This document shows, one piece after another, positions 21,341 through 44,205 of a stretch of 64,000 nucleotides of DNA. The translations under genes were made by a program, and so were the position numbers. The notes beneath the pieces are model-generated. The model saw only the letters and a list, made by a program, of their open reading frames with translations, did no database searches and was not told the DNA's origin. Position 1 is the first letter of the stretch; each line of letters starts with the position of its first letter. The stretch lies in NCBI RefSeq assembly GCF_001953175.1, contig NZ_CP018258.1:1826210-1890209 (forward strand). Direction: 5' to 3'. Origin of the DNA: Dehalogenimonas formicexedens. Lineage in GTDB: Bacteria; Chloroflexota; Dehalococcoidia; Dehalococcoidales; Dehalococcoidaceae.

Positions 21341-23168
<1,828 letters not shown>

Positions 23169-23179
<11 letters not shown>

Positions 23180-24912: not shown

Positions 24913-25105
24913 AGCCGATCGGGAAGACTTTGAGAACGGTCTGCGTATCTGGGCCCGCATGATCGCTAGGGCTCACCTGAAGAATTTGGCCAGAACGAAA
25001 GAAATCAACACGGAGGGAGAAGGAAATGCCGATCAAGGGAATTACCGGGGTCATCAGGTTGCCGAGGCTGGGGAAAATCAGGCTGGGGCTGCAAAGGGAG
25101 TCTAG
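24902..25105 (+). CDS. Possible small protein of the switch operon (67 aa)
   Basis: An ATG that overlaps the end of the small XRE gene opens a frame reading MTIEADREDFENGLRIWARM. It is basic and helical in the first 35 residues; the rest overlaps the next gene in another frame. No family is recognised. The first half, up to 25025, is the only sequence not used by a neighbour. Confidence 0.4.
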   Translation: MTIEADREDFENGLRIWARMIARAHLKNLARTKEINTEGEGNADQGNYRGHQVAEAGENQAGAAKGV

Positions 25106-26009
25106 CGAAGGGTTCTCCTATCCAGTCCCGACCGACTACTTCGTCTGCCCGGATGAGGTGAAGAAGGTCTTTGGGCAGTGTCCGACCGAGCTTTCGGTCA
25201 TGCTGCCGACCGAAAACCCGAACCAGTGGGCCAGCCAGTACCTACGATGCTACTCGGCCTACCGCGGCCTCATCTGCCGCGGCGACGGCGAGACGGCAGT
25301 GGCCAGGGTGAACACGAAAACCGGCCAGGTCGCCACCCACGAGGATGCTGAGACCGAACTAAGGGAAATCGCCTGCAGCCCAAAGTCGTGCCACCACTAC
25401 GAAACCGGCCGCTGCAAGCGGGTGATGAACCTCCAGTTCCTCATCCCCGACTGCCCGGGCATAGGCGTCTACCAGCTCGACACCGGCTCGTATCATTCCA
25501 TCCTCAACGTCAACAACAGCCTTGACCTGATCAAGAGTGCCTGCGGCCGGCTGTCGATGATTCCGCTTTCTTTAAGGCTTATCGAGAAGGAGGTCGACAT
25601 CGAGGGCAGGAAGAAAACGGTCCGGGTGCTGCTACTGACCTCCCATTCTACCTTGGCCGAGATCCAGAAGCTCGCACAGATGCCGCCGAGCGAAGTGCTG
25701 CTCCTGCCGCCGCCCGACAGCGCGGTGCCGGACGACCTTTTCCCCGAAGAGGCAATCAATATCAATAAGGAGAATATCAGGCTCGAAGACGGTGCCACCG
25801 AGCGCGACCTCATCAGACTCTGGGACAAGGCCAAGAGCAAGGTGTGGCAACTCGATATTAGGGAACACCAGCTCAGGCAGTGGTTTAGCAAGCACTGCAA
25901 CATCGATGTCGAGATACGAGATTTCAACTGGCCGCTACCGCCGGCGAAATTCACCGCCGAGGGGCTTAACCGGTTCCTTAAAGCAGTAGACCGCGACACC
26001 GCATGTTAG
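25026..26009 (+). CDS. Recombination-directionality-factor-like protein
   Basis: A 327-residue protein that I recognise by pattern as the phiC31 Gp3-like family: MPIKGITGVIRLPRLGKIRL at the start, then YPVPTDYFVCPDEVKKVFG, a LICRGDGETAVAR segment, a Cys-rich CSPKSCHHYETGRCK, and FLIPDCPGIGVYQLDTGSYH ... RLSMIPLSLRL. Relatives are annotated as metal-binding or hydrolase proteins, and Gp3 is known to turn a large serine integrase from integration to excision. Placed in the rightward arm opposite the serine recombinase, this is the natural partner for excision. The match is from memory of the family and has not been computed. Confidence 0.75.
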   Translation: MPIKGITGVIRLPRLGKIRLGLQRESSEGFSYPVPTDYFVCPDEVKKVFGQCPTELSVMLPTENPNQWASQYLRCYSAYRGLICRGDGETAVARVNTKTGQVATHEDAETELREIACSPKSCHHYETGRCKRVMNLQFLIPDCPGIGVYQLDTGSYHSILNVNNSLDLIKSACGRLSMIPLSLRLIEKEVDIEGRKKTVRVLLLTSHSTLAEIQKLAQMPPSEVLLLPPPDSAVPDDLFPEEAININKENIRLEDGATERDLIRLWDKAKSKVWQLDIREHQLRQWFSKHCNIDVEIRDFNWPLPPAKFTAEGLNRFLKAVDRDTAC

Positions 26010-26016
26010 TCAGAAC

Positions 26017-28311
26017 ATGACCACCAAAGACTCACGCGGCGAAAAGACCGCTACTGCCGACGCGTTCAGCGAGGCCGTGCCGGAACTCCTGGAGAGTCAC
26101 TTAAGGCATCTCCTGGATGACACCGGCCTCGACCTCGACATCATCCGGGAGCGGAAGTACCGGAGCATCGTGTGCAAGGCTGAGCTATCAAGGCTCGGCT
26201 TTGCACAGTCGCAACAGCATGTGCCCGGCCTCCTAATCCCTTTGTGGGGCGTCGACGGGCAGGCGGCCGGGTACCAACTCCGGCCCGATAACCCCCGCAC
26301 CAACAACCAGGGCAAGATGGTGAAATACGAGCTGCCGGCAGGGTCGGCAAACCGGCTCGACTGCCCGCCCCGCTGCCAGAAAGCTCTCGGCAACCCCAAG
26401 GTGCCGCTCTGGATCACCGAGGGCTCCAAGAAAGCCGATGCCCTGGCCGGCCGCGGTGCTTGCGCCATATCCGTCACCGGTGTCTGGGGATTCAAAGGCA
26501 AGAACGAGTTCGGCGGCGTGACCTTCCTCGCCGATTGGGACTACATCGCCCTTAAAGAACGCACCGTTTACCTCGCCTTCGACTCCGACATCATGACCAA
26601 GGAGCCGGTGAGGAAAGCACTGTCTCATGTCGCCGAGCACATCCGGCGTAAAGGGGCGAAAGTGCAAATCGTCCAACTGCCCCAGTTGGAAGGCCAGGGC
26701 AAAACGGGCATCGACGACTACCTGCTCAAGTATTCCCTCGCCGATGCCGAAAAGCTGGTCGGTGAGTTCAAGCTGGAAGAAGAAGACCGGGAGCGGTATG
26801 TCTCCGGTTTCATCCTCCGCGACGGCACGGTGGGCGAGATGGTGGTCGATGAAGATGACCGGTATTTCATGGTTTCAGACGGTGGGGCAATCAAGAAAGT
26901 CTGGCAATACGACACCTCGAAGGTGACCTACCTGCCGACCACCGATTCGCTGGTCGGCCATGTGGTGCACTTCGCCCCCGGCGCCGCGCCTTATGACTCT
27001 CAGGCAAAACTCTTCGGAGAGATAAAGGGCTTTATCCACCGCTATATGGAGCTGCCGTCTGATTTCGAGGAGATCGCTTCGCTCTACGTCCTCTTAAGCT
27101 GGGTTTACGAGTTCGCCCCTTCGATTCCATATCTCCGGGTGATCGGCGACTGGGGCACCGGCAAGACACGTTTTTTGCAGGTTGTCGGCAGCGTGTGCTT
27201 CCGCCCGATGTTTGCCTCGGGCGCTACCACGCCGTCGCCGATCTTTCGCATTCTGGAGCAATTCCGGGGAACGTTGGTGCTTGATGAAGCCGACTTCAAG
27301 GATTCCTCAGCCTGGACGGAGATGGTGAAGCTTCTCAATAACGGCTACCGGCCAGGGATGCCGGTCCTTAGAGCCGACAAGGAAAACGGGAAATGGTTTC
27401 CCCGCGGCTACCAGGTGTTCGGGCCGAAACTACTGTCGACCAGGTTCCCATTCAGCGACGAAGCCCTCGAGAGTCGCTGTCTGACGTCCGAGATGATGCC
27501 GCTCACCCGCGAGGACATCCCCCGCGTGCTGCCGGCGTCTTTCGACAAAGAGGTCGGGACCCTGCGGTCAAAGCTGCTCACCTTTCGCCTTCACAACCTT
27601 TGCCGTCTCAGGGGCAAGACCTTCGGCAACGAACTCCTCGAACCCAACCTGCAGCCGCGCCTTCAGGAGATACTCATTCCGATGAAGGCCATGCTTAACG
27701 GCGACCACGCCATGGCGGAGGCGCTGGGCAGTTTCGTCCACCGGCTACAGGAATCGCTTTACACCAGACGCCGAGAAAGCGACGCCGGACGGGTGCTTGC
27801 CGCAATGATTGAACTGCACCGGGAAAACAAGGAACTGTCACTCAAAAACATCGCAATAAGCGCCAGCGCCATGGATGAAGAGGAGGCTCCATTCAACCCG
27901 GAAAAGGCTGGCTGGCTGACCCGGCGGCTCGGCTTTCAAAAAGAGAAGGGCAGCAGCACGCGGCGAAGGGTGGTCTGCTGGGATCAGGCAAGGGTCGAAA
28001 GCCTGATCAAGCAATATGGCCTTAAGCTCGAACCCCCCGTATCCGAGAAAAAACCTTTCACTCCTTTCGAACCTTTCGAAACAGCTTCAGATTCCCCGAA
28101 AGGTTCTCAAGCGAAGGAAAAACCTTTCGCTGAAAAAGCCGGAAATTCGTCGGATTTAGCTTTGGAGGGGACGAAAGGTTCTGAAAGGGCGGAAAAACCT
28201 TTCGAAAAACCTTTCGTACGTGAGCCTGAACGTGAGGCGAAAGGTTTGAAAGGTTCGAAAGGTTCTGTAGGGAATACGGCGTCTTATCATCAGCCGGAGG
28301 GAACGACATGA
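26017..28311 (+). CDS. DUF3854 primase-helicase-like replication protein
   Basis: A 764-residue protein. Residues 60-250 resemble DUF3854, a TOPRIM-like domain that often sits on primases: PLWITEGSKKADALAGRGA and VYLAFDSDIMTKEPVRKA. Residues about 350-560 form a P-loop ATPase: Walker A GDWGTGKTR, Walker B GTLVLDEAD, and an arginine-rich segment around LESRCLTSEMMPLTREDIP. A C-terminal wHTH-like region precedes an unstructured tail (about 675-755) rich in KPF and KGS motifs, which results from the DNA repeats described below. It probably opens and primes the element's origin. The next gene overlaps it by four bases. Confidence 0.8.
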   Translation: MTTKDSRGEKTATADAFSEAVPELLESHLRHLLDDTGLDLDIIRERKYRSIVCKAELSRLGFAQSQQHVPGLLIPLWGVDGQAAGYQLRPDNPRTNNQGKMVKYELPAGSANRLDCPPRCQKALGNPKVPLWITEGSKKADALAGRGACAISVTGVWGFKGKNEFGGVTFLADWDYIALKERTVYLAFDSDIMTKEPVRKALSHVAEHIRRKGAKVQIVQLPQLEGQGKTGIDDYLLKYSLADAEKLVGEFKLEEEDRERYVSGFILRDGTVGEMVVDEDDRYFMVSDGGAIKKVWQYDTSKVTYLPTTDSLVGHVVHFAPGAAPYDSQAKLFGEIKGFIHRYMELPSDFEEIASLYVLLSWVYEFAPSIPYLRVIGDWGTGKTRFLQVVGSVCFRPMFASGATTPSPIFRILEQFRGTLVLDEADFKDSSAWTEMVKLLNNGYRPGMPVLRADKENGKWFPRGYQVFGPKLLSTRFPFSDEALESRCLTSEMMPLTREDIPRVLPASFDKEVGTLRSKLLTFRLHNLCRLRGKTFGNELLEPNLQPRLQEILIPMKAMLNGDHAMAEALGSFVHRLQESLYTRRRESDAGRVLAAMIELHRENKELSLKNIAISASAMDEEEAPFNPEKAGWLTRRLGFQKEKGSSTRRRVVCWDQARVESLIKQYGLKLEPPVSEKKPFTPFEPFETASDSPKGSQAKEKPFAEKAGNSSDLALEGTKGSERAEKPFEKPFVREPEREAKGLKGSKGSVGNTASYHQPEGTT
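28052..28264. repeat. Iteron-like AACCTTTCG repeats on both strands, candidate origin
   Basis: Within the last 90 codons of the primase-helicase gene the 9-mer AACCTTTCG or its complement CGAAAGGTT occurs eight times without mismatch (starts 28070, 28097, 28121, 28172, 28196, 28208, 28238, 28256), plus near matches at 28052, 28061, 28183 and 28247. Because both orientations share one reading frame they are translated differently, as KPF and as KGS. Conservation is therefore at DNA level. Replication origins inside or next to the initiator gene are common in plasmids and phages. Confidence 0.75.
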
Positions 28312-28778: not shown

Positions 28779-29135
28779 ATGGAAGAACGCTTCAACAGAA
28801 TCAAGAGGATACAGCAAGACCTGGCAAACGAGCTTCAAGTGTTCATGTGCGAGCTCTTTACCAGCGCCGCCGACCCAACCACTGTCATGAACTTCGCCCA
28901 GAGGCTCGGCGTGGACGTTTCGGCTGGTAAGCATTTGCCGCCTCAACCGCCTGCTCAGGATCCCTACAGGGTCCTCGGCTGTGACCGGGGGACGCCGCAG
29001 GAGCAGGTAAGACGCCGCTACTTGGACCTACTCCGAAAGCTTCACCCGGACACCGCCGGCATCAAGGGCACCGAATACCTGACTCAACTGGTGACCGAGG
29101 CCTTCAAGAAGATCTCCGTCGAGAGGAGGTGGTAA
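28779..29135 (+). CDS. J-domain (DnaJ-like) protein
   Basis: 118 residues. The C-terminal 50 form a J domain: DPYRVLGCDRGTPQEQVRRR, then YLDLLRKLHPDTAG with the HPD tripeptide that stimulates Hsp70 ATPase. The N-terminal part is a helical segment (MEERFNRIKRIQQDLANELQ). The domain is shortened, which is common in phage and plasmid J proteins. It precedes an AAA ATPase, so together they may recruit host DnaK during replication or assembly. Confidence 0.8.
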   Translation: MEERFNRIKRIQQDLANELQVFMCELFTSAADPTTVMNFAQRLGVDVSAGKHLPPQPPAQDPYRVLGCDRGTPQEQVRRRYLDLLRKLHPDTAGIKGTEYLTQLVTEAFKKISVERRW

Positions 29136-29137
29136 AG

Positions 29138-30058
29138 GTGAAGGATGAAAGTGTTCTGGAACAACTTTCCGAGATCGCAAGATTCGAGGCGTCGGTCGAC
29201 ATGGACAAGAACTACCGTATCGGCTGGGGCTGGCGGCAGGTCCGCATCTGGCCGGCGACGCTGTCGAAACTCTTCAAAGAGGGTTATCTCGAAAATGTCT
29301 TTCGCTCCAACTCCCACACCGGCTACCGGCTGAGCGAACTCGGTAAACACCTTCTTTCGGCCGAGAATGCGCCGCCCCAGGCGCGCCAGGGGCCAAAACT
29401 GGCGGCACCCGATTCTCTATTTGCGGATATCATCGGGCATGACGGCGTAAAAGAGCTTCTCAGGGCTTCACTTCTTGCCGAAAAGCCGGTGCATGTCCTT
29501 CTCACCGGACCGCCCGCCCTGGCCAAGACGCTTTTCCTCTGGGATATCGAAAAGGCCGGCGGCGAGAAGGCCATCTGGTTGGTGGGCTCGGCAACATCGA
29601 AGGCCGGTCTTTGGGACCTTGTTGCCGGACGCGAGCCTTCCATCCTTCTTATTGACGAAATCGACAAGATGAACGCAGCCGACACCGCGGCGCTTCTGAC
29701 CATGATGGAAGGCGGCCGGTTGATCCGGGCCAAAAGGGGCCGCGAGCTTAACATCAACAATCCGCTGTGGGTGGTGGCCGCCTCAAACCGGTGCGAGAAA
29801 TTGTCGCCGGAACTCCGGTCGCGGTTTGCGATCCGGATGTTGAATCCGTACGGCCGGGCGGAGTACCTCGCTGTTGTGAAAGGCGTCCTCGTCCGCTCAG
29901 AGGGCTTGAGCTCCGAGCTTGCCACGGAGGTCGCCGACCGCCTCGACGGCCTGACCCAAAACGTTCGGGACGCAATACGAGTGGCTCGCCTGGCGCCGCA
30001 ACTCGGCGTCGAGAAGGCGATCAAATTACTTTTAGGAGGAGCGTCAAATGAAGACTGA
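29138..30058 (+). CDS. MoxR/RuvB-like AAA+ ATPase with N-terminal winged helix
   Basis: About 306 residues from the GTG at 29138, which has GGAGG eight bases upstream; another GTG lies nine bases earlier. Residues 1-70 look like a winged helix (LSKLFKEGYLENVFR ... HTGYRLSELG). The AAA+ core has Walker A GPPALAKT, with Ala where Gly is usual, Walker B ILLIDEIDKM, sensor 1 VVAASN and the arginine finger SPELRSRFAIR. The sequence style (SKAGLWDLVAGREPSILLID) is like archaeal-type MoxR/RuvB-like proteins. It could load a helicase or remodel a complex. It ends inside the next gene's start. Confidence 0.8.
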   Translation: MKDESVLEQLSEIARFEASVDMDKNYRIGWGWRQVRIWPATLSKLFKEGYLENVFRSNSHTGYRLSELGKHLLSAENAPPQARQGPKLAAPDSLFADIIGHDGVKELLRASLLAEKPVHVLLTGPPALAKTLFLWDIEKAGGEKAIWLVGSATSKAGLWDLVAGREPSILLIDEIDKMNAADTAALLTMMEGGRLIRAKRGRELNINNPLWVVAASNRCEKLSPELRSRFAIRMLNPYGRAEYLAVVKGVLVRSEGLSSELATEVADRLDGLTQNVRDAIRVARLAPQLGVEKAIKLLLGGASNED

Positions 30059-31931: not shown

Positions 31932-31965
31932 AAGGGTCATGTCATCCTTTATTGAGGATCAAAGA

Positions 31966-33780
31966 ATGCTTTGCCCTACTTGTTTAACCGAAATCGGCCG
32001 TACTAGACTTACTGCGATCAATGGTGTGACAACATGCCGAAGCTGTTCATCCTTTTTTCGGGCTTTGAGAGTTCCTTATCAGAATTGGTTTACTCCAAGC
32101 AATATATTAACAAGTAAATCGGTTAATGACCGCCATCCTGGTATTAATATTCAGTTATTGAAGAACGTGATAAAACGGTTGAATTTATCGGGCACTTATA
32201 ATACGCCCGAGTCTATACGAGCGGTTTTAAATCGTCTATGCGCTTCGCTACATTTGCTTCTCACCAAGGAAATCAGTTCATTCGAAAAGTATGAAGCGAT
32301 CACGGAGATTCTGAATCGGCTCGATTATTTATATACACTTAGGTCGGTTCAATTAATGGAATATTCGAGATCATCTATTCCACTAAACGAACATGTTGAT
32401 CGCAATTTATTCTTCAATAAATTATTCGCGTCTTACGGGAAATCTCTCGAACTTATTCTTGAATCAGCCCTCAAGAATGATAGTTTTTCCAAGTACCCTT
32501 CTCATAATAAGAGCCCCTGGAACAATATACTTGAACTAGCTTCAGAAATTGTAACCATCAATCATCATGTGGAGACATTCAATCTGTTTCCAGAAAAAGG
32601 GGAACTTCAAATAACAGCCTGCTCATGGGATTTAAATTTTCCAGAGGAACAAGAGCAATTACTTAATTCGTTAATGACAGGCTGGTCGAAAGATGACGTC
32701 AGTCATAGCTTAGATAATAAAGTGGACAATGACTCGGCAGCAAGCTCTTCTGAAGACAGAATTAGCGAAATAATGCAATTATCCAATAATAATTATAAAC
32801 TGATAGATGATACTTGGGAAGACCTTCAAGAGGTTATTTTAAAAACCAACAATTTCCATGTAAAAGAGTATGGATATGCTTTCAACCACAAACTCGCCGT
32901 CACCCTTCTTATTGCCAAATTGCCAAAAGCGTTAGATCGAGATTGGATAACGAAGGAAGAACTCATTAATTACATTAAAACTAATCTGAGTCTCGAACAT
33001 GAAGAGTGTTCCTTCATTATAGATAGTCTTTCCTTGACAGGTCATAATCTCAGAGAAGAGAATGCTTATTATTTTGAATTCCGGCGGATTAATCGCATAA
33101 TAAGAAAACCCTTGGTCGCGATTCCTGTAGGTAATACTAACGCCTATTTCGTCTCTCCTGCATTACTCGGTCGAGCAGCCCTACATCTCCAGATCGAATA
33201 CTGTATTGGCAATAGCCCTGAAATGAAAAGTAACGACCTGAAAAAGGCTTACGGTCAGATTAGTCAAGGATACGCTGATTATTTTGTAAGAAAAAGGGTA
33301 TCGCCTATTTTTGTGAGTAACGGATTTATCTGTGATCAGCTGATAAAAGAAATTGATGGTATTGATTTAAAGGATCAATGCGGTGAGTTGGACGTTGTGG
33401 CTTATAATCCAATCAATAACCAATTGTATGTCGTAGAATGCAAACATCGATCAGGCAAACACATCCATACAAGTCATTTCAGAAAAGAAATCCAAACCTA
33501 CACAAAAGAAAAGGGGTATTTAACTCAATTAGTTAAAAAGGTGCAATGGGTGACAAACAATACAAATATGGTCTTAAAGCATTTGAAAGTAGATTGTACG
33601 ATTCAACCAACAGTCAAAGGACTATTTGTGACCACGTTTTTTTCGCCTGTCTCTTTATTACAACAAGAAATAGAAATATTGACAATAGATGATCTGGCAC
33701 CATGGTGTGCAACCAAAGTTAAAAGTCGAATATGTGAAGAAGGCCAAAGAATAAGGATCTCAAATTTGAATTCCTCGTGA
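31966..33780 (+). CDS. AT-rich PD-(D/E)xK nuclease-like protein with zinc ribbon, candidate defence gene
   Basis: 604 residues from the preferred ATG (613 from 31939). The N-terminus is a zinc ribbon: MLCPTCLTEIGR and TTCRSCSSFFR. The middle 400 residues are helical and unrecognised. Near 470-500 lies CGELDVVAYNPINNQLYVVE, immediately followed by CKHRSGKH: Asp then Glu-x-Lys on a predicted beta hairpin, the catalytic core of the PD-(D/E)xK fold. The gene is far richer in A+T than its neighbours and uses codons rare in the rest of the element, with its own promoter and a downstream hairpin terminator. This is the usual look of a recently acquired cargo gene such as an anti-phage nuclease. No methylase or helicase partner lies beside it. 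Confidence 0.7.
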   Translation: MLCPTCLTEIGRTRLTAINGVTTCRSCSSFFRALRVPYQNWFTPSNILTSKSVNDRHPGINIQLLKNVIKRLNLSGTYNTPESIRAVLNRLCASLHLLLTKEISSFEKYEAITEILNRLDYLYTLRSVQLMEYSRSSIPLNEHVDRNLFFNKLFASYGKSLELILESALKNDSFSKYPSHNKSPWNNILELASEIVTINHHVETFNLFPEKGELQITACSWDLNFPEEQEQLLNSLMTGWSKDDVSHSLDNKVDNDSAASSSEDRISEIMQLSNNNYKLIDDTWEDLQEVILKTNNFHVKEYGYAFNHKLAVTLLIAKLPKALDRDWITKEELINYIKTNLSLEHEECSFIIDSLSLTGHNLREENAYYFEFRRINRIIRKPLVAIPVGNTNAYFVSPALLGRAALHLQIEYCIGNSPEMKSNDLKKAYGQISQGYADYFVRKRVSPIFVSNGFICDQLIKEIDGIDLKDQCGELDVVAYNPINNQLYVVECKHRSGKHIHTSHFRKEIQTYTKEKGYLTQLVKKVQWVTNNTNMVLKHLKVDCTIQPTVKGLFVTTFFSPVSLLQQEIEILTIDDLAPWCATKVKSRICEEGQRIRISNLNSS

Positions 33781-38492: not shown

Positions 38493-39749
38493 ATGCGCTA
38501 CGCCATCATTCCAAAAGGTAAAAGCCTGACCGATATCGAGGTCGAAGCAAAAAAGATCGGCGCCCGGAACCTGAAAAAGGCGGAGGTCATCGGCCAGATC
38601 TTCTGTGAACTGGACCAGGCCCAGGCCGAAAAGCTGGCCGCAGTCTCGGGGCTGGTGCTTAAGCCCCTCAAGGAATACGGCACCAGTCAGATGACCGCCC
38701 AATCGCCGCCGGCCGAGAGCATCTCAGACGTCTTCTATTTGCTGCGGAGCTACTTCGCTCCGCCGATCACCGGCACCGGCCTTACCGTAGCCGTTCTGGA
38801 TAGCGGCGTCCGGAAGACCCACCAGTCGCTCTTGGGCAAGGTGGTCTATGAAGCCAACTTCACCGAATCGCCGACCGCCGCCGACGTCTTCGGACATGGC
38901 ACCCAGGTAGCTTTCACCGTGGCCGGCGGGCACCATGCCCTGGGTGAGAACTCCGGGGTATCGCCCGGAGCCGTGATCATGAACATCAAGGTTATCGGCG
39001 ACGAAGGCATCGCCTCCGATGAGGCTATTGTCCTCGGCATCGACCGGGTGTGCGACCTTGCCGAACAGGCAAGGACCTCCGGGCTTTTCCCGACCGACGA
39101 CCTATATCCCAATGTGATAAACCTCTCCCTCGGCGGTGAGGATGACGGCGATCCGGACAATCCGGTCCGGGTCGCGTGTCGCAAGGCGAGTCAGGAATAC
39201 GGACTCGATGTCATCGCCGCGGCCGGCAACACTGGCCCCAAGATGACGACGGTAATGTTGCCGGCGTGCGAGCCAGAGGTCATCGCCGTAGGAGCTGTAG
39301 AGACGTTCGGCGAGCTGCTTGTCTGGGAGAGGTCCTCGCGCGGGCCGACCGTCCAGGGCGAGACCAAGCCGGATTTTGTCATCTGGGGCACCAACCTCGA
39401 AATGGCCTCGGACAAAAACGACGAAGACTTCCTGGTGAAGTCGGGAACGAGTTTTGCCGCGCCCATGCTGGCAGGCCTTACCGGACTTCTCTGGGAGAGC
39501 GGCCGGCGGGCTTATGGCGAAGGCTGGCAGTACCGCTGGACGGCGGCAAGAGATGTGGCGCCTTATTTTTCAACCAAGCCGCAAGACGCGCCACTTAGCA
39601 AGGACAATGCCTACGGCTTCGGACTGCCGGCCATGGGAGCCATGCTCGGCCAGGTGATGAGTAGCGCTTCGCCTAACGCCCAAACCACGGAGATGGTGCA
39701 AATGATGACGGCCATGATGATGATGGCCGGCGTAATGGGAGCGATTTAG
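38493..39749 (+). CDS. Subtilisin-like (S8) serine protease with Met-rich C-terminus
   Basis: 418 residues. The catalytic triad is intact: Asp in VAVLDSGVRKTH, His in FGHGTQVAFTVAGG and Ser in SGTSFAAPMLAG, with the oxyanion Asn in AAAGNTGPK. There is no signal peptide; an 85-residue N-terminal part may act as a propeptide. The last residues are Met-rich and hydrophobic (MVQMMTAMMMMAGVMGAI), like the module's membrane proteins. Proteases in virion operons usually mature the particle; here it could also be displayed on it. GGAG seven bases upstream; the next ATG follows the stop without a gap. Confidence 0.88.
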   Translation: MRYAIIPKGKSLTDIEVEAKKIGARNLKKAEVIGQIFCELDQAQAEKLAAVSGLVLKPLKEYGTSQMTAQSPPAESISDVFYLLRSYFAPPITGTGLTVAVLDSGVRKTHQSLLGKVVYEANFTESPTAADVFGHGTQVAFTVAGGHHALGENSGVSPGAVIMNIKVIGDEGIASDEAIVLGIDRVCDLAEQARTSGLFPTDDLYPNVINLSLGGEDDGDPDNPVRVACRKASQEYGLDVIAAAGNTGPKMTTVMLPACEPEVIAVGAVETFGELLVWERSSRGPTVQGETKPDFVIWGTNLEMASDKNDEDFLVKSGTSFAAPMLAGLTGLLWESGRRAYGEGWQYRWTAARDVAPYFSTKPQDAPLSKDNAYGFGLPAMGAMLGQVMSSASPNAQTTEMVQMMTAMMMMAGVMGAI

Positions 39750-41263: not shown

Positions 41264-41734
41264 GTGGTACTCGATATCGCATTTGCGCCGATGGCGCTTT
41301 CACCAACTACCTTCAATGCCGGGGACACCGTCCGGGTGACGGTGTCCTTCAAGTACGTTGTTGGCGTGACCAAAACGGTGAAGCTCCTGGCCGGTCCCTA
41401 TTCGACAAATCTTTTTGGCAAGCACATGGTGGATGTCTGTGTCGGTCTGGCCGACCTCGTCCTTCCGGCCAGTTCGACACCGGCCGAGGGGAACGGCACG
41501 GTCGATTTCCTGCTTGTGCCCAAGTCAAGCGGTGGCATCGACGACGGCACCTTCGGCCTCCGCGTCTGGATCGAAGACACGAACGCCGTGGCCGAACAGG
41601 ATGCCGTTATCATCGTCTCCGGCAACTCTTCGGGCGGCGACATGCTCTCAGGGATGATGCCTATGCTCATGATGCTTCTCATGATGGGCATGATCTTGCC
41701 TATGACGCAAAATCTGGGTGAGGAGTCGGGCTAG
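41264..41734 (+). CDS. CARDB-like protein with Met-rich C-terminal anchor
   Basis: 156 residues from a GTG with GGAG upstream. Residues 1-115 form a CARDB-like beta domain (ALSPTTFNAGDTVRVTVSFK, then YVVGVTKTVKL ... FGLRVWIEDTNAVAEQDAVI). The C-terminus is a Met-rich membrane segment (MLSGMMPMLMMLLMMGMILP) of the same type as the 34.5-kb proteins. It may anchor the two tagged proteins. The stop overlaps the GTG of the integrase gene. Confidence 0.7.
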   Translation: MVLDIAFAPMALSPTTFNAGDTVRVTVSFKYVVGVTKTVKLLAGPYSTNLFGKHMVDVCVGLADLVLPASSTPAEGNGTVDFLLVPKSSGGIDDGTFGLRVWIEDTNAVAEQDAVIIVSGNSSGGDMLSGMMPMLMMLLMMGMILPMTQNLGEESG

Positions 41735-42432
41735 TGGGCAAGGCTTACCTGGAACCGGGCGACGTGGCCAAGCTCGAAGACGCGGCGCAGTATCTCCGGG
41801 ACCGGTTGTTGATCCGGCTCTTGTTTCACCTTGGCTGCCGGGTGTCTGAGGCCCTCGCGCTTCGGCTCAAGGACATCGACATCAGACGCGGCACGGTGAC
41901 CATCGAGCACCTGAAGTCGCGAATCCAGTTGTCATGCCCCGGCTGCAGCGCGCGCCTGGGCAAGGCACACAGGTATTGCCCGGGCTGCGGGCAGCCGGTC
42001 GAGAAGGCAGTCGCCCAAGAGAGAGAGCATCACCGTTACCGGACGCTGCCGGTGGATAAGACCACGCTTTCCCTACTCAAGGAGTACCTCGGTCGCGGCG
42101 GCGCTGTCGAGAGAAATGGCGAAAAGTGCCTTTTTGATCTTCGTCGTAACCGTGCCTGGCAGATCGTGACAGAGTGTGCCGAGCGCGCAGGCCTTCCGCG
42201 CCTGGTGAACGCCGAAAGTGGCAAGACTCACAATGTCAGCCCCCACCGGCTGCGGGATGCTTTTGCCGTCCATGCGGTGAAGGCGGACGACTCGGGCGAC
42301 GGGCTGCGGCTGCTGCAGGAGCACCTGGGCCACCGGAGCATTGTCACCACTATGAAATACCGCAAGGTTTCCGGTGAAGAGCAAAAAGAGTGGTATCGGA
42401 GACTGTGGAATGGAGGAAAAGCAAATGGGTAG
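41734..42432 (+). CDS. Short tyrosine recombinase with zinc-ribbon insertion (copy 1)
   Basis: 232 residues, GTG start overlapping the previous stop. It has the catalytic domain only: Arg in LGCRVSEALALRL, then the beta sheet region, HRLRDAFAVHAV (His-x-x-Arg), LGHRSIVTTMKYRKV (His and nucleophile Tyr). A zinc ribbon CPGCSARLGKAHRYCPGCG is inserted after the beta strand that follows the first Arg. The usual N-terminal arm-binding domain is missing. A paralogue with the same insertion lies at 44745. It may resolve multimers or invert or cut the element rather than integrate it, since a serine integrase is present. Confidence 0.85.
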   Translation: MGKAYLEPGDVAKLEDAAQYLRDRLLIRLLFHLGCRVSEALALRLKDIDIRRGTVTIEHLKSRIQLSCPGCSARLGKAHRYCPGCGQPVEKAVAQEREHHRYRTLPVDKTTLSLLKEYLGRGGAVERNGEKCLFDLRRNRAWQIVTECAERAGLPRLVNAESGKTHNVSPHRLRDAFAVHAVKADDSGDGLRLLQEHLGHRSIVTTMKYRKVSGEEQKEWYRRLWNGGKANG

Positions 42433-42730
42433 GTATACCAACCATGAAGAGTTCGGGGTGAACGCCCCGATCAACTACCGCGAGGACACGACCAGCGATT
42501 CTTTCCTTGAAGGCATGTCGGCGATCGCGCCTCCCGGCATGCGACCGAAAAGAAGCCGCGGGGAGAAGTTCGAGGAAAAGACCGATTTCAAGGCCTCGGC
42601 CAGGTGGCACCGCAACTTCGACCTGGCCATGTTCGGCGGATCGGATATCGGGGACACCGACTTTGAGAACAAGCAGCTGGGTCTTGAGAGCAAGCGGAAC
42701 GGCATCAAACGGATCCCCGGGAGGCGGTAA
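42425..42730 (+). CDS. Paralogue of the 34096-34308 protein, extended
   Basis: 101 residues from the ATG at 42425, chosen for its GGAGG and because its start aligns with the 34.1-kb gene (MGRYTNHEEFGVNAPINYRE against MGKYASWNDLEKNVPVAYQE). The C-terminal extension is basic (LGLESKRNGIKRIPGRR). It overlaps the integrase gene by eight bases and the next gene by one. Confidence 0.65.
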   Translation: MGRYTNHEEFGVNAPINYREDTTSDSFLEGMSAIAPPGMRPKRSRGEKFEEKTDFKASARWHRNFDLAMFGGSDIGDTDFENKQLGLESKRNGIKRIPGRR

Positions 42731-44205
42731 TGGCCGGCCAGGTGAAAATAACTATCAAAGACAGAGAATGGATCGCCGCCGTGGCGGCCGCCCCCTGGGA
42801 ACTTACTCAGGGCTTGGGTGGTCTGCCTGGGCTGCCCGCGGCGACCGGGATGTTCTTTGATTTGGGATACTCTCGGATTGTTGAAGTGACCACGGCACCG
42901 ATGTTTTTCTCACTCGATATCGCTTTCCTTTCCGAGGATTTCGTAGTGATTGACATCTACCGCGACATTTTGCCCGGGTACCTGGTGACTTCGGCTTTAC
43001 CGGCACGGTTCTTCATCGAGGTGAATGCCGGCGAGTTGGAAGGAATCGAGGTTGGCGACAAGGCCTCGGTCAGCTGGCTTCCACTCCAGGAAACGCCGCC
43101 CATGGCGCCAGATTGGGCAAGTTCCATTGCTCTACTCGGCGGTTCCCTGGCAGCCGGGGTGTTTCTGATCGGCTTGTCCCGCCATTTCGCCGATACTGTT
43201 GTCGGCTCTTCAGGATCAGAATTGCCGACAGCCGCTGGGGACCAGTCAGCCAAATGCGAGATCGTGAAACCTCGGAGCTACGACCTGATGAGCTGGGTCG
43301 GCGCGCCGGTGCCGGACTACAGCTTTTCCATCGAGCCGGAAGCCAAAGAACGCCGCATCGATGAGGTCTTAAAGCAACTCAAAGATGGCGTCGACGGCAT
43401 CCAGTCAAGCAGCCATTTCCGGAACTTCCTGCTTACCATGTCGAAGTTCCACGACTACTCCATCGGCAACCTGATTCTCATCGCCTCTCAGAATCCTAAC
43501 GCTACCCGGGTGGCCGGCTTCAACACTTGGAAAGATCTCGGCCGCTGGGTGATGAAAGGTGAGAAGGGAATTGCCATCCTGGCACCGTGCCTGCCATCGA
43601 AATCGAGTCTGAAAACCGAGCCATCAGGCGAAGATGAATGCCGGAAAGATGACGAGGAAACAGAGAAGCGGGAGCTGCTGCGGCCAATCTATTTCAAGGT
43701 GGTCTATGTTTTCGATGTCAGTCAGACCGAAGGCAAACCGCTGCCCGAATTCGATGTTCCGGTGCTCACCGGCGAAGCCAATGAGGAGCTATTCGACGAT
43801 ATTACGCATCTCGTCAGGAGTGAAGGCGTGCACGTCGGGTTTGACTCTAAGCCGTACCAGGATCCGGCCATAAAGGGTTTCTTCTCCGGCAAGGAAATCT
43901 GGGTCAGGCCTGAGGAATCGCGGGCCCAACAGTTGAAGACGCTTATCCACGAGGTGGCTCACTACTATTCCGAAGGAGTCTTCCACATTCCGAGGCGAGA
44001 TGCCGAAACCATCGCCGAAAGCGTTGCCTTTGCCATCGGCGCCCACTTCGGCTTCGATACCGGTACCAGGTCCTTCCCCTACGTCGCTCTCTGGGCGCAG
44101 GATAAGAAGGTCCTTGAACGGAATCTGGCCTCGATCCGCCAGGTGACCACCAGAATCATCGAAGGCCTCGAATCCCTGGCAAAAAAGCCGGCAGGGGTGG
44201 TATAG
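42730..44205 (+). CDS. DUF192 - membrane helix - ArdC-like antirestriction/metalloprotease fusion
   Basis: 491 residues. Residues 30-115 match DUF192 (TTAPMFFSLDIAFLSEDFVV, ... LPARFFIEVNAGELEGIEVG). A hydrophobic helix follows (IALLGGSLAAGVFLIGLSRH). Residues 210-300 resemble the ArdC N-terminal ssDNA-binding domain (FRNFLLTMSKFHDYSIGNLI, then RVAGFNTWKDLGRWVMKGEK). Residues 395-450 form a zincin with LIHEVAHYYSEG (HExxH) and AETIAESVAFAIGAHFG. ArdC proteins protect incoming plasmid DNA from restriction. The fused DUF192 and membrane helix are unusual and would place the protein at the membrane where DNA enters. Confidence 0.8.
   Translation: MAGQVKITIKDREWIAAVAAAPWELTQGLGGLPGLPAATGMFFDLGYSRIVEVTTAPMFFSLDIAFLSEDFVVIDIYRDILPGYLVTSALPARFFIEVNAGELEGIEVGDKASVSWLPLQETPPMAPDWASSIALLGGSLAAGVFLIGLSRHFADTVVGSSGSELPTAAGDQSAKCEIVKPRSYDLMSWVGAPVPDYSFSIEPEAKERRIDEVLKQLKDGVDGIQSSSHFRNFLLTMSKFHDYSIGNLILIASQNPNATRVAGFNTWKDLGRWVMKGEKGIAILAPCLPSKSSLKTEPSGEDECRKDDEETEKRELLRPIYFKVVYVFDVSQTEGKPLPEFDVPVLTGEANEELFDDITHLVRSEGVHVGFDSKPYQDPAIKGFFSGKEIWVRPEESRAQQLKTLIHEVAHYYSEGVFHIPRRDAETIAESVAFAIGAHFGFDTGTRSFPYVALWAQDKKVLERNLASIRQVTTRIIEGLESLAKKPAGVV

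Follow-up and report, generated by a model that had tools for sequence, protein, structure and literature searches.

A cluster of short repeats at the 3′ end of a primase-helicase gene of Dehalogenimonas formicexedens is, with a probability of roughly 0.8, the replication origin of an integrated mobile element, which lies inside the element's own initiator gene and is bound by the encoded protein through its C-terminal winged helix-turn-helix (wHTH) domain. The cluster was analysed within a stretch of 64,000 nucleotides, referred to here as the window. An origin within the initiator gene was already proposed in a preliminary description of this DNA, and this proposal appears to be supported by comparison with the SaPI/PICI, P4, and lambda systems and by the link between the wHTH and the repeats. 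At this site we infer protein binding, the assembly and loading of helicase rings, and origin firing with replication.

Iteron array in the coding tail

The array occupies the last 90 codons of the primase-helicase open reading frame (ORF). In the window, a gap of 47 bp separates the end of the array from the end of the ORF, whose stop codon overlaps the ATG of the next gene (ATGA, 28308-28311).

28052..28264, + strand: iteron array in the coding tail, with eight exact and three near copies of AACCTTTCG
28052..28078, + strand: left tandem triplet, with sites at 28052, 28061, and 28070 (9-bp spacing)
28238..28264, - strand: right tandem triplet, with sites at 28238, 28247, and 28256 (9-bp spacing), inverted relative to the left triplet

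The 11 sites follow the order +++ - + - ++ ---, where + denotes AACCTTTCG and - denotes CGAAAGGTT, and the codon phase is identical at the start of every one of them (11/11). Exact copies start at 28070, 28121, 28196, and 28208 on the + strand and at 28097, 28172, 28238, and 28256 on the - strand, which agrees with the preliminary description, where eight exact copies had been counted, oriented both ways but sharing one reading frame. Three of the four near copies listed there also stand, namely the one-mismatch copies at 28052 (+) and 28247 (-) and the two-mismatch copy CTCCTTTCG at 28061, which keeps the 9-bp register. The fourth, at ~28182 on the - strand, was discounted for its three mismatches and its position out of phase.

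The 9-mer is not common elsewhere except in sister arrays; its being equally common elsewhere had been named as a result that would contradict the proposal. In the rest of the window, 17 matches with one mismatch were found, showing no excess over the 18 expected from shuffling for the whole window, and the 2.09-Mb genome contains 42 copies of the 9-mer, compared to 33 of the reversed control motif. More than half of the genomic copies (22/42) sit in three like arrays, 8 in the window, 7 at ~239.3 kb, and 7 at ~1633.2 kb, while the other 20 are scattered singletons, clustering being restricted to these sister arrays. The AT content amounts to 54% in the array and 53% in its spacers, above the window's 46% and the ~40% typical of most of the gene around them, and no clear AT-rich melting stretch was detected in the array and spacers. 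The cumulative GC skew reaches a minimum near 27-28 kb, a weak signal that follows gene and transcription direction; a skew switch was therefore dropped as evidence of an origin. In addition, a second short box, GATTTAGCTTC/GAAGCTAAA, is present between the iterons at 28082-28160 and in the counterparts in loci L013, L014, and L029. This box recurs in several arrays with different motifs, its enrichment being only about twofold.

The array is under constraint at the DNA level. In the tails of six sister genes, the Pro-Phe pairs are encoded by CCT TTC in 36 of 36 cases and the Gly of the KG dipeptide by GGT in 29 of 32, whereas CCT and GGT each account for only 13% of the Pro and Gly codons, respectively, in the rest of these genes. 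The dipeptides in this test were picked by protein sequence alone and not by exact iteron strings. Array sites of other homologues are read in two or three frames, and several arrays lie wholly or partly past the stop codon (L052, L062, L065, L094, L104, L113, L115, and L116). A peptide function is ruled out as the explanation by the fixed codons, the several reading frames, and the arrays past the stop codon, in agreement with the earlier proposal that selection acts on DNA and not on protein. The proposal had also named a pattern that would contradict it, homologues that keep the KPF/KGS peptides and lose the DNA repeats; the homologues instead lose KPF/KGS and keep an array of another motif.

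The same data bear on the idea that the tail is a low-complexity protein sequence produced by slippage or gene conversion, without any function of the DNA. The tail is of low complexity, and on each side its outermost three sites form a tandem run of 9-mers. However, this explanation is extremely unlikely in view of the unlike peptides encoded by inverted copies, the fixed synonymous codons, the occurrence of sites in several frames and past stop codons, and a paralogue, described below, which keeps the spacing with a changed motif. It is also very unlikely that the function of the repeats lies at the level of RNA or single-stranded DNA, as transcript-regulating hairpins or as a single-strand origin or priming structure. 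The origin of pRN1 is a stem-loop downstream of the replication gene (PMC4234260), and the tail examined here folds far better than dinucleotide shuffles (z -4.6), which is caused by the presence of copies in both orientations. When the iterons are held and the spacers shuffled, however, the window array folds at chance level (z -0.2), indicating that hairpin folding is a by-product of the shared sites. Moreover, a single motif is used throughout each array, direct tandem copies included, which pairing would not require. Some other arrays give z values of -2.6 to -3.2 with the iterons held, possibly due to conserved bases flanking the cores.

Domain organization of the initiator and neighbouring genes

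The array directly follows the last domain of the encoded protein, in the order DUF3854, MCM-like AAA+ helicase, wHTH, and array.

26017..28311, + strand: primase-helicase ORF, 764 aa
26386..26730, + strand: DUF3854 domain (PF12965; primase-associated by annotation), E 7e-22, residues 124-238
26788..27786, + strand: predicted MCM-like AAA+ helicase core (AlphaFold2, VIA-align, Foldseek)
27802..28044, + strand: predicted C-terminal wHTH, the proposed iteron reader (AlphaFold2 pLDDT 85, winged-helix matches)
25026..26009, + strand: Gp3-like recombination directionality factor, upstream in the same module (PF18897, E 1e-48)
21341..23179, - strand: large serine recombinase of the element (PF00239, PF07508, PF13408)

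The primase-helicase has a distant PHROG match, 'DNA primase', and its helicase core carries a Walker A (GDWGTGKT) and a Walker B (LVLDEAD) motif. An AlphaFold2 model of the core (pLDDT 87.6) was aligned by VIA-align to the MCM homologue 3f8t with a Z of 17.2 over 248 residues at 4.3 A, and the VIA-align list for this model is filled by MCM chains. Foldseek gave the C-terminal region of NrS-1 as the top match and also matched ORC/Cdc6, with papillomavirus E1 (SF3) and a D5-like poxvirus helicase lower down. A sequence-profile search of the PDB returned only chance-level or weak MCM9 matches. As modelled, the helicase core has an MCM-type AAA+ fold. The top fold matches of the wHTH (about residues 596-676) are general winged helices, including ORC/Cdc6 origin readers, and the P4 alpha domain is missing from the best 50 fold matches listed for this model.

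Several other genes of the window were recorded. An AAA+ ATPase near the initiator gene (29129-30058) is weakly RuvB-like or clamp-loader-like and is possibly a helicase partner. A 613-aa ORF at 31939-33780 lies in a low-GC stretch (37-40%, compared to about 55-60% around it) and has no Pfam or PHROG match, only a weak match to a TraR-type zinc finger. The subtilisin-like protease at 38493-39749, with PADLOC matches to subtilase and IetS, is of the type found in IetAS-like systems of defence. Further downstream, a tyrosine-integrase-like ORF (41734-42432, 232 aa) is placed just upstream of an ORF at 42730-44205, in which a DUF192 domain is joined to an ArdC-type anti-restriction domain.

Motif diversity and the specificity cassette

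Arrays of this kind were searched for at the 3′ ends of 70 different complete homologues by counting how often a single 8-mer occurs without mismatch within 350 bases. At least five copies are present in 28 of the 70 and at least four in 38, and none of the equal-length upstream control stretches or shuffled sequences of the 70 homologues reached five copies; about half of the homologues have no array by this strict 8-mer criterion. The motif differs by lineage and includes AACCTTTCG, AACCGTCCG, ACTGTCCG, AGTGTCCG, AACCGTCAC, AAACCTTCG, ATTGTCAC, AACGTCAC, ATGCTTCG, AAGTTCAC, which is used by several viral homologues, AGTGAAGG, ACCGTAAC, ATCCGTAAC, and more. Most of the motifs, as read from this list, share a core of approximately [GTC]T-N-[AC]-[CG], and same-direction neighbour sites are mostly 8-9 bp apart in coding and non-coding arrays alike. 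DUF3854-related genes from Streptomyces, Pseudoxanthomonas, two uncultured phages, and a Streptomyces plasmid show no array of at least five copies, so that the array appears to go with the helicase-wHTH part and not with DUF3854.

The initiator gene is present in three genomic copies (G000:C1 237274, L013; 1631143, L019; and 1852226, L002), each of which carries its own AACCTTTCG array; the origins of the three elements should therefore cross-react. In a distant paralogue in the same genome, L071 (G000:C1:1387500-1392000; G000:C1:1389669), six ATCCGCAAC sites form a near-perfect mirror layout. Its counterpart in the sister genus keeps the spacing of 9-48-32-36-9 exactly, with ATCCGTAAC at all six sites. 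Two further observations concern single genomes. Genome G007 contains one AACCTTTCG element together with two AACCGTCCG elements. In L067 (G018:C27), GTTACC/GGTAAC repeats flank the winged helix on both sides and encode VTNVTNVTN before it and VTMVTKVTKVT after it.

The array motif changes together with the adjacent wHTH as one block.

27800..28300, + strand: specificity cassette consisting of the wHTH and the array, the part in which elements with another iteron diverge

The DNA identity between the window and same-motif elements (L163, L164, and L167) is 0.68-0.95 through 27.6-28.4 kb. Between the window and AACCGTCCG elements (L162, L165, and L166), it is ~0.73-0.95 over 27.5-27.8 kb, 0.43-0.62 over a block of ~500 bp at 27.8-28.3 kb, and again 0.65-0.87 over the 500 bp past 28.3 kb. 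In a Mantel test on 35 genes, motif similarity was correlated with wHTH identity given helicase identity (partial r 0.43, p 0.0002), although linkage alone could give part of this correlation because the wHTH and the array are neighbours, and helicase identity given wHTH identity added nothing (partial r 0.055, p 0.16). The correlation was 0.30 (p 0.0002) when each motif type of the window's genus was represented by a single gene and 0.20 (p 0.0016) with no pair above 55% wHTH identity. Linkage of neighbours is a possible confounder, but more identity is retained in the equally near downstream gene.

In trees of both the helicase core and the wHTH, all AACCTTTCG elements form one clade, the branch to which measures 0.47 in the wHTH compared to 0.082 in the helicase core. 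These sequences are consistent with one switch, either by replacement or by fast joint change, as both fit. A grouping of the window's helicase core with elements of other motifs, which would be proof of recombination, was rejected in view of the single AACCTTTCG clade in both trees.

The block also bears on whether some other protein, encoded by the element or by the host (a repressor, partition protein, or relaxase), could bind the array, which would then serve as an operator, centromere, or transfer origin. parS sites and operators, too, typically contain arrays of inverted short repeats, and a phage-type repressor is among the HTH proteins of the element. Nevertheless, such a role is unlikely, considering that the motif is tracked by the wHTH only and not by the helicase core, that identity in the flanking genes remains at 0.65-0.9 in spite of a changed motif, that the position of the array follows the helicase gene across very different elements, and that the iteron is not in excess elsewhere in the window.

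Comparison with known origins and proposed mechanism

The C-terminal domain of SaPI Rep is described in PMC7581432, which cites Ubeda et al. 2007, as recognising iterons directly downstream of its own gene. In PICIs, the origin is found right behind the 3′ end of the initiator gene, where two sets of iterons flank an AT-rich core (PMC6092414). The present system resembles these in its AAA+ initiator helicase with a C-terminal DNA-binding domain (here predicted by AlphaFold2 models), in the short iterons at the 3′ end of the gene, arranged as two opposed site sets, and in the variation of the iteron sequence between elements. In the relatives L052, L094, and L113, the array comes after the stop codon, comparable to the SaPI/PICI placement, whereas the window array is inside the ORF. 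Further differences from SaPI/PICI are the lack of an AT-rich core between the iteron sets and the fusion of a DUF3854 domain to the helicase. DUF927, the helicase type of SaPIbov1 Rep and Cch, gave no Pfam match in 27 members at E 0.1.

In P4, crr comprises tandem type 1 repeats 9 bp apart, in inverted sets, at the 3′ end of the alpha gene. P4 alpha is likewise a primase-helicase with a C-terminal winged helix (here predicted), and both systems have short iterons that occur in either orientation and form tandem pairs with 9-bp spacing, those of P4 being the 8-bp TGTTCACC. The use of AAGTTCAC by several of the viral homologues is a further point of likeness. Unlike the window array, however, crr is located directly 3′ of, and outside, the alpha coding sequence; the iteron motif differs, the helicase model described here resembles MCM, and no second origin like P4 ori1 was seen. 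Gene O of lambda contains the phage's origin (PMC4488673, PMC5043065), just as the iterons at 28052-28264 lie within their initiator gene. Lambda O is no helicase itself and depends on P for recruitment of the host enzyme, whereas the present protein has its own AAA+ helicase with both Walker motifs. The iterons bound by the N-terminal half of O are 19 bp long, and an A-T rich segment adjoins the lambda origin, of which no clear equivalent is present here. SCCmec Cch is an MCM-like helicase, and the C-terminal domain of Cch2 binds short iterons downstream of its own gene (PMC7581432). The likeness to Cch/Cch2 lies in an element-encoded, self-loading helicase (self-loading being proposed here), and the differences lie in the type of element, the domain make-up, and the three AAGTG iterons between genes, compared to eleven in the gene. 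By analogy, the system would work like SaPI/PICI, P4, and lambda and would formally be a member of none, since its array in the coding sequence, its lack of an AT-rich core, and its MCM-like helicase with a DUF3854 partner place it outside all three. What is new, as the sequences suggest, is a linked specificity cassette written into the coding sequence.

In the proposed mechanism, the initiator, made up of a primase-associated domain, an MCM-like helicase, and a winged helix, would bind the 9-bp iterons through the C-terminal winged helix, and neighbouring subunits would be seated on tandem sites 9 bp apart. The two inverted triplets could then assemble two helicase rings facing away from each other, which would open the DNA and, once the element has been excised, initiate replication in both directions. 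The intragenic location would keep the reader and its sites together; being encoded side by side, they would be inherited or replaced as one cassette, which may let related elements switch origin specificity in one step.

The host group presumably comprises relatives of the organohalide-respiring Dehalococcoides. No description of the origins of integrated elements in these bacteria was found in the literature searched, and the ssrA islands of Dehalococcoides were reported to be apparently devoid of genes for replicating independently (PMC3146451). With the array, the probable replication start of such an element can be located. The dozens of homologous readers paired with differing sites provide a data set for the DNA specificity of winged helices. 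The odds are about even that there is a widespread class of MCM-like primase-helicases in Chloroflexota mobile elements and environmental phages, in which an exchangeable 3′ cassette of wHTH and origin sites has diversified into a couple of dozen 8-9-bp iteron types, mostly sharing the core given above, and forms a natural recognition code that could be read and reprogrammed. The linked, diversified reader-plus-site cassette is the most interesting part of the finding, and it suggests how elements may escape cross-reaction with relatives in the same cell.
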